Source of the DNA: Eublepharis macularius
Lineage: Eukaryota; Chordata; Lepidosauria; Squamata; Eublepharidae
Reading direction: 5' to 3'
NCBI RefSeq assembly: GCF_028583425.1
Contig: NC_072806.1
Location: forward strand, 31,666,001-31,730,000
DNA: 64,000 nucleotides
Part shown: positions 5,679 to 61,267 of the stretch, one piece after another
How positions within the stretch are numbered: the stretch's first letter is position 1
How the letters are laid out: each line of letters starts with the position of its first letter
The notes under the pieces: generated by a model
The model's input: only the letters and a program-made list of their open reading frames with translations
What the model was told of the DNA's origin: nothing
The model's database searches: none
Translations under genes and position numbers: made by a program

Positions 5679-5694
5679 AAATCAATAAAATAAA

Positions 5695-5915
5695 ATCAAA
5701 AAGAGTCCAGTAGCACCTTTAAGACTAACCAATTTTATTGTAGCATAAGCTTTCGAGAATCAAGTTCTCTTCGTCAGATGCATGATGATCATGCATCTGA
5801 TGAAGAGAACGTGATTCTCGAAAGCTTATGCTACAATAAAATTGGTTAGTCTTAAAGGTGCTACTGGACTCTTTTTGATTTTGCTACCACAGACTAACAC
5901 GGCTAACTCCTCTGC
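5695..5915. mobile_element. Penelope-like palindromic element with two hammerhead-like arms
   Basis: The left arm (from AAGAGTCCAGTAGCACC) is repeated inverted on the right around a centre near 5787. The flanks carry a 14-bp duplication ATCAATAAAATAAA (5681-5694 and 5916-5929). Each arm holds a hammerhead-like motif: minus strand at 5743-5781 and plus strand at 5793-5831 (GCAT, CTGATGA, A, paired GAGAA/TTCTC stem, GAAAGCTT, ATGC). The outer sequence CTACCACAGACTAACACGGC is shared with the copies at 34.5, 49.1 and 58.9 kb. Assignment to Penelope-like elements is inferred from structure. Confidence 0.65.
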
Positions 5916-6723
5916 ATCAATAAAATAAATTATCTCTGTGCCAAACAGTAACTATTTGGGGCACTCTCAAACACACAGCCTGGGCATTCATGAAGAAGAA
6001 ACAGAAACTACCAGCCCTGGTTCCAAGCATTTAAGGCCAGGATGCAAAGAACTGTTTAAGGCTCACAACCAGGGGCTTGCAGTCGAAGGGTTTTTTAAAC
6101 ACTTTGTCACTGAATTCCAGGCAGTCAATTCATATAACAAATTGCGTTTGAAACTCTCCTCAGTTTCAAACATGTGACACTACATTCGTTTGAGAGAAAA
6201 AAGGATCAAATCCCCCACAGGTGTTATAGAACTAAGTGCATGGTTCTTTGGATGCCGGCTTTCGTCCAAACCAATGTTCCCCTGCACATGCATAGAGAGG
6301 GGAGTAGCATTCCAGTTACACTCTATGCAGATATACATTCTGCAGTGTAAAAGGCATCCAGGCTGTATCTCAAGAAGGTTCGAACTCTACTCTGAAGAGG
6401 TATTTCATAATAAGCCAATGTTATCGTCAATTATTGTAGTAGCCAATGCATGAATTACTAAACGGTAATCTTGATTTAAAGTTGCCCCTTTGCAACCGAA
6501 ACCACCAGTTTAAAAAAAATCAGGGGCCTACACGACAGGGGAGGGCAAGAGGCCCCTTGGTCCGATTCAGCAACGCTGTTCTTAGTCCACTGGCTCTCCT
6601 GTGTCCTACTGGCATGAGCAACAGGGTGCTTCCACAAATGAGAAAACCATTTTACACTATCATGAAATGAGCCAAGTTTCTTAGGAAGCGCTGCGTGAGC
6701 CAGTAAGCGAAGTCAACACTTAC

Positions 6724-23727: not shown

Positions 23728-23825
23728 GCAAGATTTGAGTCCAGTAGCACCTTAAAGATCAACAAGACACCTGAGGTATAAGCTTTCAAGAGTCAAAGTT
23801 CCCTTCGTTGGATACTTTCCAACAG
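23728..23825 (-). mobile_element. Diverged Penelope-like repeat arm
   Basis: GAGTCCAGTAGCACCTTAAA and TATAAGCTTTCAAGAGTCAA identify one arm of the family at 5695 and 58857. The hammerhead-like core is degenerate here. Confidence 0.5.
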
Positions 23826-26679: not shown

Positions 26680-26840
26680 CCTCCAAGACTACCAAAATTT
26701 GTGCTAGGGTATGAGCTTTCATGAGCCACAGCTCACTTCTTCAGATACCCTTCAGATAAGATGGTAGGCTCATGAAAGCTTATACCCTATCACAAATTTT
26801 GTTACTCTTACAGGTGCTACTGGACTCTTGTTCTTGTCTG
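26680..26840. mobile_element. Penelope-like palindromic element (GGGUAU variant)
   Basis: Two inverted arms share ATGAGCTTTCATGAGCC and CTCATGAAAGCTTATACCC, and the outer GGTGCTACTGGACTCTTG. The left arm on the minus strand (26707-26750) folds as GGGUAU, CUGAAGA, A, GUGAGC-UGUG-GCUCAU, GAAAGCU, C, AUACCC: a six-pair closing stem different in sequence from the GCAU/AUGC type. The right arm is degenerate. Confidence 0.55.
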
Positions 26841-34503: not shown

Positions 34504-34720
34504 AGATGGGTAGCCATGTTACTCTGTCTGTAGTAGCAGAAAAGAGCAAGAGTCCAGTAGCACCCATAAGACTGACAAAATGTGTAGTAGGGTATGAGCT
34601 TTTGCGAGACACAGCTCGATTCTTCAGATATCACAGTAGCACCTATAAGACTGACAGAATTTGTGGGAAGGTATAAGCTTTCGTGAAGCACAGCTCACTT
34701 CTTCAGATACTGTGACCCAG
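34504..34720. mobile_element. Penelope-like repeat with two tandem arms
   Basis: GGGTAGCCATGTTACTCTGT, then AGAGTCCAGTAGCACCC begins a first arm (to about 34,628), and GTAGCACCTATAAGACTGAC begins a second in the same orientation. The second arm has an intact hammerhead-like motif on the minus strand at 34671-34710 (GUAU, CUGAAGA, A, GUGAG stem, GAAAGCUU, AUAC). The first is degenerate. Confidence 0.55.
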
Positions 34721-47460: not shown

Positions 47461-48994
47461 TTAAATTGACATTAAAATTTGAATCTGTAGACAAATGCTT
47501 TATTCTGCCTCGACTAAAATTTAATAGATACCATGAAGTGAACTTTGGAGAGGAGAAGTACTGTCTCTCCCATGGGATCACCCATTGAACATCCCCAATT
47601 TTCCTTATTTTAATACATTTTTAAAGTCCTTCTCAGTAGATTCAGCAGGGTGCTGAAGGAATGTGAATTGTCACCTGAAAGTACTTTTAAAGTTAATTTT
47701 CTGAGACTCTCTCTGTCCCCAATTGGAGTCCTGTAGCCCAGACTGCGTCCTTCATCTGCTCTTCCCTCCTTTGGTTGTTCCTAGAAGGGCAGGAGCAAAC
47801 CGCCATGCACCTCAATTCTTGCCAGATTTTTTGTGTGGATTTTGTGTTTCAGTGCTGTGACACCTTGTCCTCCCTTCTCATCCCCGTGGCCCTCACTGCC
47901 AACTCATTTTGATTCTAATTTGTTTATGGAAATGACATACTGTCACCCTTGGTCTTTATGGTATGCCTGATCCTGTCGTATCGGATAAAAAATCCCGTGG
48001 TTGCAGTTAGAGAGGTTGGGGAGGGAGTAGCAAAAAAAAAAAAAAAGTCTCTCTGGAATCTATTAATATCCAGGAGAGGTGAAGATTGCAAGCTACGAAG
48101 GAAGTCTCCTCTGCTTTGATCTAATTCTGTCCTCACCCTCAAAGCCTGAGCAGCATCAGAACAAAAGTATCATTGAGCATATGCAGAGCTGGTCCAAACC
48201 CACCTCTCCAAGACAAGAAGCTTGGAAAGATGTGCTGGAGAGGGAGTTTTGCCTTATGAATGGCTCTGGTCGCCTTGGAGATTTCCTTCCCGCTTTTCTG
48301 GATCTTGAGCTCATGTTTCCTCCATTAGTCTGCACTTCGGTTTCTCTGCCCCAGCCCCGCTTCACTTTTTAAGCTGCCTTTACCCTACAATCCAGTGTCA
48401 ATCGTGTGTTCTGTGGATGAGTTTATAGAGGCCGTGTACATTGCATAAGCATCTGTGGATTCAAGCAAGCCCCTCTTTATTGGAGCTAATCAGAGTATCA
48501 CAAAAGGGTGCTAATGAAAAGGCATTGCATGACCCCTGTTTTTGCAATGTTTCTATGGACCAGCATGGTTAGCTACAATCTCTGTGGATTTGACGGAAGG
48601 GACATCTTAAAGATGTCTAAAGCGTGTCTAGTCCCCTTGACATTCTGCCTGCCTCCAAACTCACATGCTTGCCCACTGAACTAAAACTGTGTTGAGGCAT
48701 CAGTGAACATTCTGTGACATCACAGAAGCTCATCCAATAGCTGGGAAGGAGGCAGAGCTGGAAGATTAACCAGTTGCCTAGACTTCTCAAGTGTTGGAGG
48801 GAATGATTTCCCTCCTGCCCGATGCTATTTATCCTTGGCCATAGCAGCTCCATCTTGGAGCATGTGATCCTCTCCACGGGGTCCTTTGCACTTTGAAAAT
48901 GTAATTGCAGAAGCTGCTTCTAATAGCACACCTCTAGAGTCAGGCATGTATTCTTTCTGGATCCTGCATTTGGAATCTTATTTTTTGCATTAAC
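47461..48994. other. LHFPL-like intron, no gene or clear repeat recognised
   Basis: Mostly unique sequence with a 15-A run at about 48033. Confidence 0.45.
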
Positions 48995-49137
48995 CAACTT
49001 TACTGCATGCATCTGATGAAGAGAACTGTGATTCTCGAAAGCTTATGCTACGGTGAAGTTGGTTAGCTTTAAAGGTGCTACTGGACTCTTTACTATTTTG
49101 CTACTACAGACTAACACAGCTAACTCCTTTGGATCTG
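48995..49137 (+). mobile_element. Penelope-like repeat, single arm
   Basis: A hammerhead-like motif at 49009-49048 on the plus strand (GCAT, CTGATGA, A, GAGAA loop TTCTC, GAAAGCTT, ATGC), then GGTTAGCTTTAAAGGTGC, TACTGGACTC and CTACAGACTAACACAGC. It is one arm without the inverted partner. Confidence 0.65.
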
Positions 49138-49506
49138 TTTTTGCATTATTTCCCTATCAGCAATCTTAGGGCTCATAAAACCTCCTTGTCCTTTCTGCTC
49201 CCACTCCTGGATGTGATTAATTGTTTATCCCAAATAAATTAAGAGCCCCTCAACGGGTCTATAAATATGCCTTTCTGTGGCCTCCATAAATCCTGGTTGA
49301 TGATAGATCTATACCCGTTGTTTTATTTCCTTGGGTGTGAGATGCAGGCTGTGGCCATTCTGTTCATTAAATATATCTGGTCATACTTGCACAAAAATCT
49401 CGTTTTTAAAAAAATCTGTTAACTCCAAGTGAAATTTAAACTGGAAACCGGCATAAGCAATGTTTCTAAAAGTCCTCGCCTGCTCCACAGCTAATTTTTA
49501 CTGGAC

Positions 49507-58680: not shown

Positions 58681-58926
58681 TACATACTTTGTGGGAAGGA
58701 GTATCTGATGTGCTTTGAAAGCACGATCTAAACTTTTGTGGGAGCTTTTGGGCAGAGGAACCCGTGTATATGTGTTTTCTGCAAACTTATTCAAATCCCT
58801 AATACATTCCTATCTCTGATCTGCCAAATGCTATTTTCTCTCTATGGCCATAGATCCAGAGGAGTTAGCCGTGTTAGTCTGTAGTTGCAAAATAGTAAAG
58901 AGTCCAGTAGCACCTTTAAGACTAAT

Positions 58927-59186
58927 CAACTTTATTGTAGCGTAAGCTTTCGAGAGCCACAGCTCTCTTCGTCAGATGCAACTTTATTGTAGCATAAGCT
59001 TTCGAGAGCCACAGTTCTCTTCGTCAGATGCAACTTTATTGTAGCATAAGCTTTTGAGAGCCACAGCTCTCTTCATCAGATGCAACTTTATTGTTGCATA
59101 AGCTTTCGAGAACCACAGTTCTCTTCATCAGATGCAACTTTATTGTCGGATAAGCTTTCGAGAGCCACAGCTCTCTTCGTCAGATG
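58927..59186 (-). repeat. Five tandem 52-bp units, each a hammerhead-like motif
   Basis: CAACTTTATTG recurs at 58927, 58979, 59031, 59083 and 59135, and CAAC again at 59187: an exact 52-bp period. On the minus strand each unit reads CATCTGAYGA, A, a six-pair stem, GAAAGCTT and an ATGC-like end. Unit four changes both sides of the stem (GAGAAC with GTTCTC), keeping the pairing. Unit three departs from the GAAA core. Confidence 0.85.
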
Positions 59187-59199
59187 CAACCTGACGGTT

Positions 59200-59239
59200 G
59201 CATCTGACGAAGAGAGCTGTGGCTCTCGAAAGCTTATGC
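59200..59239 (+). ncRNA. Hammerhead-ribozyme-like motif (best copy)
   Basis: The order is GCAU (stem I), CUGACGA (core), one extra A, GAGAGC-UGUG-GCUCUC (stem II), GAA, AGCU (self-complementary minimal stem III), U (cleavage-site position) and AUGC (stem I). All core positions of a hammerhead are present except for the extra base between A9 and stem II. Small hammerheads with a reduced stem III are known from Penelope-like elements and act as dimers. Activity is not shown here. Confidence 0.5.
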
Positions 59240-60467
59240 AACAATAAAGTTGGTTGGTCTTAAAGATGCTACTGGACTCTTTACTATTCTCTCTCAAGGA
59301 TCCAACGGTGGGTGGTGCTGCTGGAGAAGGACGAAGCAGGTCATGGCTTGAATTGGACAGTTCCACCACTGGCGTGGCAGGGCTTTCACTCATTCCCTTC
59401 CTCAAGCGCTAAGGATAACAATTTTAAGCAGCACGAAATACACATGCAACTTGAAAGCTGGGCAAAACTGTCGACACGCTTCTTTCCCGCTTGTCTAGTA
59501 TAACCTCTGTGTGCATTTTTTTTAAAGTTAAGGAATGTATTACTGCAGCGAAATGAGTGTAAACGGTAGAGTTGCCAGGTCCCCTTACCCTCCTGGGGGG
59601 AGAGGGGAACCAGTGCTTACCTTTTCTTTGCTCCCATCATGCTTTTTGCGTGTGCCTCTGCAATGATGTCACTTCCTGGAAGTGACATCATCACATAGGT
59701 GCAGGGGGGGTATGCATGCTTTACTGCAGGTCGATTTTGGTCCCAAACAGGCTTGTTTGGGGTCGAGTGCTCTTGGGGTGCCATGATGACATCACTTCTG
59801 TGGGTGATGTCGTCGCATCACCTTGGGAGCATGCCCAGGAGGCCCATTCCCACACCTTTCTTCTGCCCCGTCTAGGTGACTGGTGGCAGGGGGCGGAGGG
59901 TGGGAGCAGGGGATCCCTCGCTCTCACCAGGGGAATGGGATCTTTATCATGGAGGGGGGGGGCTACACTCAAATGGGAAGTGGTTCCCTGCAGCACCTTC
60001 ACATCTGCACAAAACAAAGGAATGGCCCGGACTTGGGCAGTGTTCAGGATCCCGGTTTGTTGACAGAGGATACTGTGCTGAGAATAGTTAAAAGAAGATA
60101 AGACACTCCTTTACTCACAACGCAGTTAGATGAAACGGAAGGGTGTTGCCTTTAGCTCTTGTGCAACATGCTCAGTTTCAAAAGTCACTGTGAAGAGCGA
60201 GCATTTGTACCTGCGCCATAGCGTGCCAGAGAAGGCATAGCTTTCTACTCTCCTATCTCCCCTCTCCCTGCATGGGGGAGAGGGGAACGGCCTGTTTTTG
60301 CTTTTTGCTTAATAGCACTTTGTGAGCACGTGGGCAATTTCTGTCCTGCAAATATCATGGGGCGGGGGAGGGGAGATAATCTCTGTTGTTGCCCCAGTGC
60401 CAAAACCACAAGCCAAACTGAAGGGGGCATTCCCCCACATTGCACTGCTCTGATTTTATTTAAGATG

Positions 60468-61192: not shown

Positions 61193-61267
61193 ATTCATTC
61201 ATTCATTCATTCATTCATTCATTCATTCATTCATTCATTCATTCATTCATTCATTCATTCATTCATT
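61193..61267. repeat. (ATTC)n microsatellite grown from a LINE tail
   Basis: About 18 units directly continue the 3' end of the minus-strand L2 copy that starts at 61268. Confidence 0.95.

Follow-up and report, generated by a model that had tools for sequence, protein, structure and literature searches.

The 64,000-nucleotide stretch of Eublepharis macularius DNA analysed here (the window) carries a foldback in which one arm bears five direct 52-bp units on the minus strand and the other a single inverted unit on the plus strand. TRF (58927-59190, period 52, 5.1 copies, 93% matches, 0% indels) and the unit scans, which place successive unit starts 52 bp apart with the inversion included, agree on this arrangement. 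The foldback, the exact tandem period and the hammerhead motif of the Penelope-like element (PLE) type, with stem III almost absent, were all borne out as set down in the original prediction. The features of the locus, with one comparison copy from the same window, are:

58836-58843, no strand: possible left target-site duplication (TSD) TTCTCTCT, an imperfect copy lying 9 bp ahead of the tail (score 16), with the right copy at 59287-59294
58853-58890, minus strand: PLE-type 'tail' of 38 nt, on the array-side arm only (sequence and arm-end alignments; counterpart in parts of PMC11167929 and PMC3846280)
58891-58926, minus strand: part of the array-side arm that separates the last unit from the tail (sequence)
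58927-59187, minus strand: five direct 52-bp units, with a hammerhead-like motif in each; cleavage is predicted 3' of the second U, between GCUU and AUGC (TRF and unit scans)
58940-58979, 58992-59031, 59044-59083, 59096-59135 and 59148-59187, minus strand: unit cores (unit scan)
59188-59199, no strand: 12-nt loop AACCTGACGGTT, the head-to-head joint (sequence and genome pattern count)
59200-59239, plus strand: single inverted unit, core and stems sound (pattern match and unit scan)
59240-59288, plus strand: second arm, with a tail-less end at TTTACTATT (sequence and arm-end comparison)
5693-5918, no strand: foldback without an array, one unit per arm and the tail on the right arm, ends approximate (comparison copy)

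The units were described with what we take to be the hammerhead core and its numbering (CUGANGA, stem II, GAA, UH and stem I; G12, for example). These elements of a minimal PLE-type hammerhead are present with an intact core in five of the six window units, G12 being lost in the unit at 59044. The original statement that every unit holds the motif is overstated: three of those five have a stem mismatch, in stem I for the units at 58940 and 59148 and as an A/C mismatch in stem II at 58992; only the units at 59096 and 59200 are free of these defects. The motif pattern has eight exact matches in the window, five of them inside the array, and none in 100 dinucleotide shuffles; chance is excluded.

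Further PLE-like copies lie in the same window. A single-unit PLE copy at 48980-49140 has at its 5' end a short segment of its own arm in inverted orientation (ACCAACTTTACTG), carries TTTTTGCATTA on both flanks and is probably a truncated foldback; translation of the copy at 49016 from its ATG runs for 16 codons before a stop. Divergent copies (foldbacks or arms) whose stem II sequence differs are found at 23735-23810, 26680-26830 and 34510-34710, the last of which resembles two tandem copies. A perfect (ATTC)n tract of 18.8 copies occupies 61193-61267.

The family in the gecko genome

A search of the gecko's own genome (2.24 Gb, 72 contigs) with the 313-bp query as probe yielded 248 matches, 40 of the 3,201 first-look candidates having been scored, and a single-locus oddity was ruled out by these matches. 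Pattern counts, each with a reversed-pattern control of zero, found 3,062 unit-unit junctions, 4,652 palindromic head-to-head joints, 145 copies of the 26-nt window joint (at most one mismatch) and 1,420 units behind a TATA-like stretch. In such promoter-like copies the TATA-like box lies 33 nt before ATGCATCTGA. The palindromic joint, GATGCATC, is thus commoner genome-wide than the window joint, and the AACCTGACGGTT type is the commoner in the sampled array loci.

Three sets of loci were compared: the 39 best matches to the query of five units plus one (L009-L047), which are biased toward five or more units; 60 loci taken in order from the first 100 listed junction hits at 0 mismatch (L048-L107; 56 on C1-C4 and 4 on C5); and 20 loci of the family sharing the window loop, picked by hand with gaps along the list (L108-L127) and covering 901 bases, in which a long array could be clipped. 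The ungapped scans, which miss units with indels, found 772 units, of which 707 were kept. L014 and L036 were left out of the unit, arm, end and tail-side comparisons, their flanks being identical to those of L011 and L035, respectively. The loop-family hits at C10:2.78-2.91 Mb and C12:56.72-56.84 Mb are similarly spaced and in opposite orientation on the two contigs, with the same flanks in these two pairs, which points either to an inverted segmental duplication of large extent or to a piece duplicated in the assembly.

Expansion in a single arm had been thought unusual at the outset; confinement of the array to one arm is instead the rule among the sampled loci. The smaller arm holds one unit in 38 of the 39 best-matching loci (two units in the other), and in the 60 list-order loci it holds no unit in 19, one in 39 and two in 2, so that 58 have none or one. 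The larger arm in the list-order set ranges from 1 to 28 units, with a mode of 2. In the loop family (57 loci), the right arm carries one unit at 54; the array occupies one and the same side of the loop at 51 loci, is reversed at 3 and is absent from 3 with one unit per arm.

Some loci depart from the simple pattern. A promoter-like copy in L063 (~1100-1350) has two tandem units, the first with its stem II loop interrupted by another repeat, which also adjoins the array of L039. L043 has 22 units with 52- and 67-bp spacing mixed in a higher-order pattern.

Ends, arms and array growth

Exactly one tail was found in 89 of 99 parsed foldbacks, 80 of which have the other end near the tail boundary; one foldback has two tails and nine have none scored. 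With T for a tail, n for an end near the tail boundary and o for any other, the classes are 51 nT, 29 Tn, 7 To, 2 oT, 5 on, 2 oo, 2 nn and 1 TT. Tail ends are sharp, falling at position 38 in 63 of the 93 scored as tail, and tail-less ends are scattered across about 20 nt. A TSD-like score of at least 16, the score of the imperfect window pair TTCTCTCT, was reached by 69% of the family foldbacks and 1.3% of shuffled flank pairs; the matches are 8-22 nt long, mostly 11-14.

In PAc of Anolis carolinensis, an AC-rich stem loop 111-118 bp into the ORF is the most frequent starting point of reverse transcription; cutting and extension take place on both DNA strands, and two start sites flank the tail (PMC11167929, in part). 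In the gecko the tail ends at about +120, counted from the ATG in the CTGATGA of the common unit. The typical insert in Adineta has an inverted pLTR, a 31-bp tail that is optional on one copy and a TATA box, and its inverted joints often contain palindromes (PMC3846280, in part). Because these published layouts match, a foldback with a single tail is known PLE anatomy. With inverted arms and a tail on one only (58853-58890), the window locus looks like one PLE insertion, composed of an arm and an inverted arm and assigned from the unit, arm, tail and layout.

The more complex window loop AACCTGACGGTT could not be derived in one step, and a heritable composite is a serious rival; one complex loop common to 145 copies argues against the joint forming afresh every time. 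The foldback, duplicated unit included, would then be a non-autonomous element mobilised by PLEs, with a hairpin RNA from either strand copied whole. This would change the origin of the copies and not the growth of the arrays, and it overlaps the explanation we prefer. Besides the loop, the largely constant side of the array in the loop family is in its favour, as is the partner unit, which in 42 of 58 loci resembles its own array somewhat more than other arrays (p 0.002). The arm subtypes, A and B, which were defined post hoc after inspection, also agree within elements (22 A/A, 8 B/B and 2 mixed among the 32 classifiable of 57), and agreement in 30 of 32 suggests that both arms probably derive from one RNA or source. 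Arm divergence is 7.0% within and 8.3% between elements (7.9% and 9.0% in 47 other foldbacks), a difference so slight that the test is weak.

Copies of a one-tailed parent should keep the side of the tail. In the loop family, however, the sides are split 26:26, each of the 5 unclassified of 57 having an incomplete tail on a single arm, and no sequence signal for tail side was detected in these loci (p 0.16). The tail is on the array arm in 23 loop-family loci and on the other arm in 28 (16 and 18 in the other foldbacks). Tail side is unrelated to the array side and was ruled out as an inherited character. Moreover, no column differs in base frequency by more than 24 points between the two arms, and the same loop accompanies both subtypes, A and B. 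We regard copying of a whole heritable hairpin as conceivable yet rather doubtful.

The arrays themselves bear the marks of growth in place. In 57 of 70 loci, units resemble those of their own locus more than those of other loci (Wilcoxon 7e-7), the other 13 being without such closeness; adjacent units are closer than in shuffled order (p 0.014), and many variants are restricted to part of one array. Among 18 five-unit arrays no positional homology was found (0.0607 vs 0.0615). Higher-order periods of two units (L098) and four units (L029 and L033) were picked by eye among 15 arrays of at least nine units. The likeness of units within loci, the lack of a shared order and the higher-order periods together indicate that the arrays most likely grew locus by locus. 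As in minisatellites, copy number varies between loci (1-28 units) and units are alike locus by locus, and separate, stepwise growth at the DNA level is the most likely course.

An array might alternatively be made in one step during reverse transcription, with the enzyme jumping back 52 nt at the short GUUG/UG identity and recopying the unit. A single join does fit all 3,062 junctions, and near-uniform arrays exist, for example in L044 (14 units) and L013 (12 units). Variants confined to part of an array and the higher-order periods, by contrast, need stepwise duplication after mutation, and formation of whole arrays in this way is improbable. Such a jump could still account for the first duplication, as the common join may reflect either one origin or repeated jumping by the enzyme.

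Array loci are concentrated toward contig ends, 35 of 56 lying within 10 Mb of one against 13 of 91 promoter-linked copies (Fisher 2e-9; hand-entered from the listed hits on C1-C4 only, arrays at 0 mismatch and promoters at one or none). The window locus is 14.8 Mb from a contig end. By eye, two-unit copies with the shared loop are also near contig ends, so the location is not explained by growth alone; palindromic joints look spread out among the matches listed for the first 89 Mb of C1. For squamate satellites derived from SINEs, too, a subtelomeric position is reported as likely (PMC10702118, in part).

The hammerhead motif and cleavage

The unit motif fits the description of the PAc ribozyme (PMC11167929, in part), and PLE hammerheads are usually without helix III (PMC6155905, in part). 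Scoring with the Rfam hammerhead models, which had been proposed as a check, gave no match at the gathering threshold in the window, nor any in 58800-59400 with E values up to 10, possibly owing to the missing stem III. In predicted folds of three units, stem II forms in each and a 7-pair stem I in one.

Could the arrays be maintained for their ribozymes? Adjacent hammerheads would in that case cut 52-nt RNAs that are circularised, or serve PLEs, as in retrozymes. The intact core in five of six window units is compatible with this, as are the palindrome AGCU in GAAAGCUU, through which two motifs might share a stem III, the array junction, which can lengthen stem I as in the unit with seven pairs, and the mention of minimal hammerheads in tandem in axolotl PLEs (PMC7229834, in part). 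Across the sample, however, the core is intact in only 388 of 707 units, with most losses at two CpG sites, and the six pairs of stem II show no covariation, the paired fraction being that expected from independence. In the MFE fold of the array, neighbouring units pair with each other, and the transcript as a whole forms a long hairpin.

The starts of the arms bear on the same question. Among 143 single-unit arms, none starts within one base of the predicted cut; 109 begin at GCATC or no more than three bases ahead of it, and 13 begin elsewhere within the unit. These are arms with no further unit upstream, 104 array arms being excluded and L014 and L036 left out, and their loci were mostly chosen for arrays; cleaved RNA is thus not visible as a template in this 143-arm sample. 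The PAc ribozyme itself cut only in the presence of added PLE protein, and none of the RNA-seq reads had its start or end at the cut site (PMC11167929, in part). Selection for a ribozyme array is, on this evidence, highly unlikely, and the original proposal that the array favours dimeric cleavage was not supported by the Rfam, core, stem II and cut-site results. Cleavage of the array RNA into 52-nt units, judged from the DNA, is possible but unsupported.

Nothing found at the locus supports production of small RNAs from the repeats. Matches to MIR821, mir-3160 and MIR396 were set aside as falling below gathering scores and being of the type expected from a long hairpin. The lower variation of the core than of the spacer was discarded as evidence of constraint, since units had been picked by core likeness.

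Proposed origin and relation to known systems

The locus is probably best explained as a short PLE insertion of two head-to-head arms from the 5' region, in one of which the unit has grown to five copies in the manner of a minisatellite. Each arm would comprise a hammerhead unit and arm sequence, with a tail on one of the two, and the arms may be cDNAs of one kind of RNA that were started on each of the cut strands and became joined at their distal ends. The joint GATGCATC could be the palindrome common to two cDNAs that reach a start about 33 nt downstream of the TATA-like box: cDNAs reaching such a start would end in the self-complementary ATGCAT, and pairing of these ends would give GATGCATC. 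Once the unit had been duplicated in one arm, slippage or unequal exchange at the DNA level would raise it to five copies. An arm with one unit presumably cannot expand by misalignment and a duplicated arm can, which would account for arrays in one arm. The hammerhead would be inherited PLE equipment and not the reason for the array.

A bolder reading is that PLE foldbacks seed ribozyme minisatellites, mostly near chromosome ends, and that where such arrays are transcribed in the presence of PLE protein, neighbouring motifs cut the RNA into 52-nt units, giving tiny retrozyme-like loci; we consider this very improbable.

In short, the self-cleaving-RNA motif of a Penelope-type remnant is duplicated into a small tandem repeat here and likewise at many sites in the genome. 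The many apparently independent natural arrays of minimal hammerheads in one genome, with 2 to 28 units each, offer a test bed for dimeric or protein-assisted cleavage; the conversion of retroelements into subtelomeric satellites is extended from SINEs to PLEs; and the one-tail pattern limits the ways in which a PLE insertion can acquire its two ends. No report of arrays of this kind in reptiles was found among the listed papers of the hammerhead and Penelope literature, as judged by titles and abstract openings, and the scale and regularity of ribozyme-bearing arrays derived from PLE foldbacks appear to be new.

The closest known systems are PLEs of the Penelope/Poseidon clade. PAc has its hammerhead at the junction of the pLTR and the ORF and a tail of 30-40 bp (PMC11167929, in part), and Pen2a of Adineta vaga shares the inverted pLTR, the optional tail on one copy, the palindromic inverted joints and the TATA box (PMC3846280, in part). 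In the portion of the Pen2a paper available, hammerheads are not mentioned, and its TSDs are short, at 8-10 bp, compared with mostly 11-14 bp for the TSD-like matches in the gecko. Unlike PAc and Pen2a, the gecko insert consists of two arms with no ORF, reading of the copy at 49016 stops soon after the ATG, and the hammerhead unit is tandemly repeated. Squamate SINE-derived satellites also arose repeatedly as tandem repeats from part of a dispersed retroelement, with a likely link to subtelomeres (PMC10702118, in part), whereas the source in the gecko is a PLE and the unit bears a ribozyme motif. Metazoan retrozymes likewise combine tandem repeats with type I hammerheads; their units, however, are about 150-450 bp long, with canonical hammerheads and circular RNAs (PMC7229834, in part), while those of the gecko are 52 bp, carry a minimal motif and are known from DNA alone.
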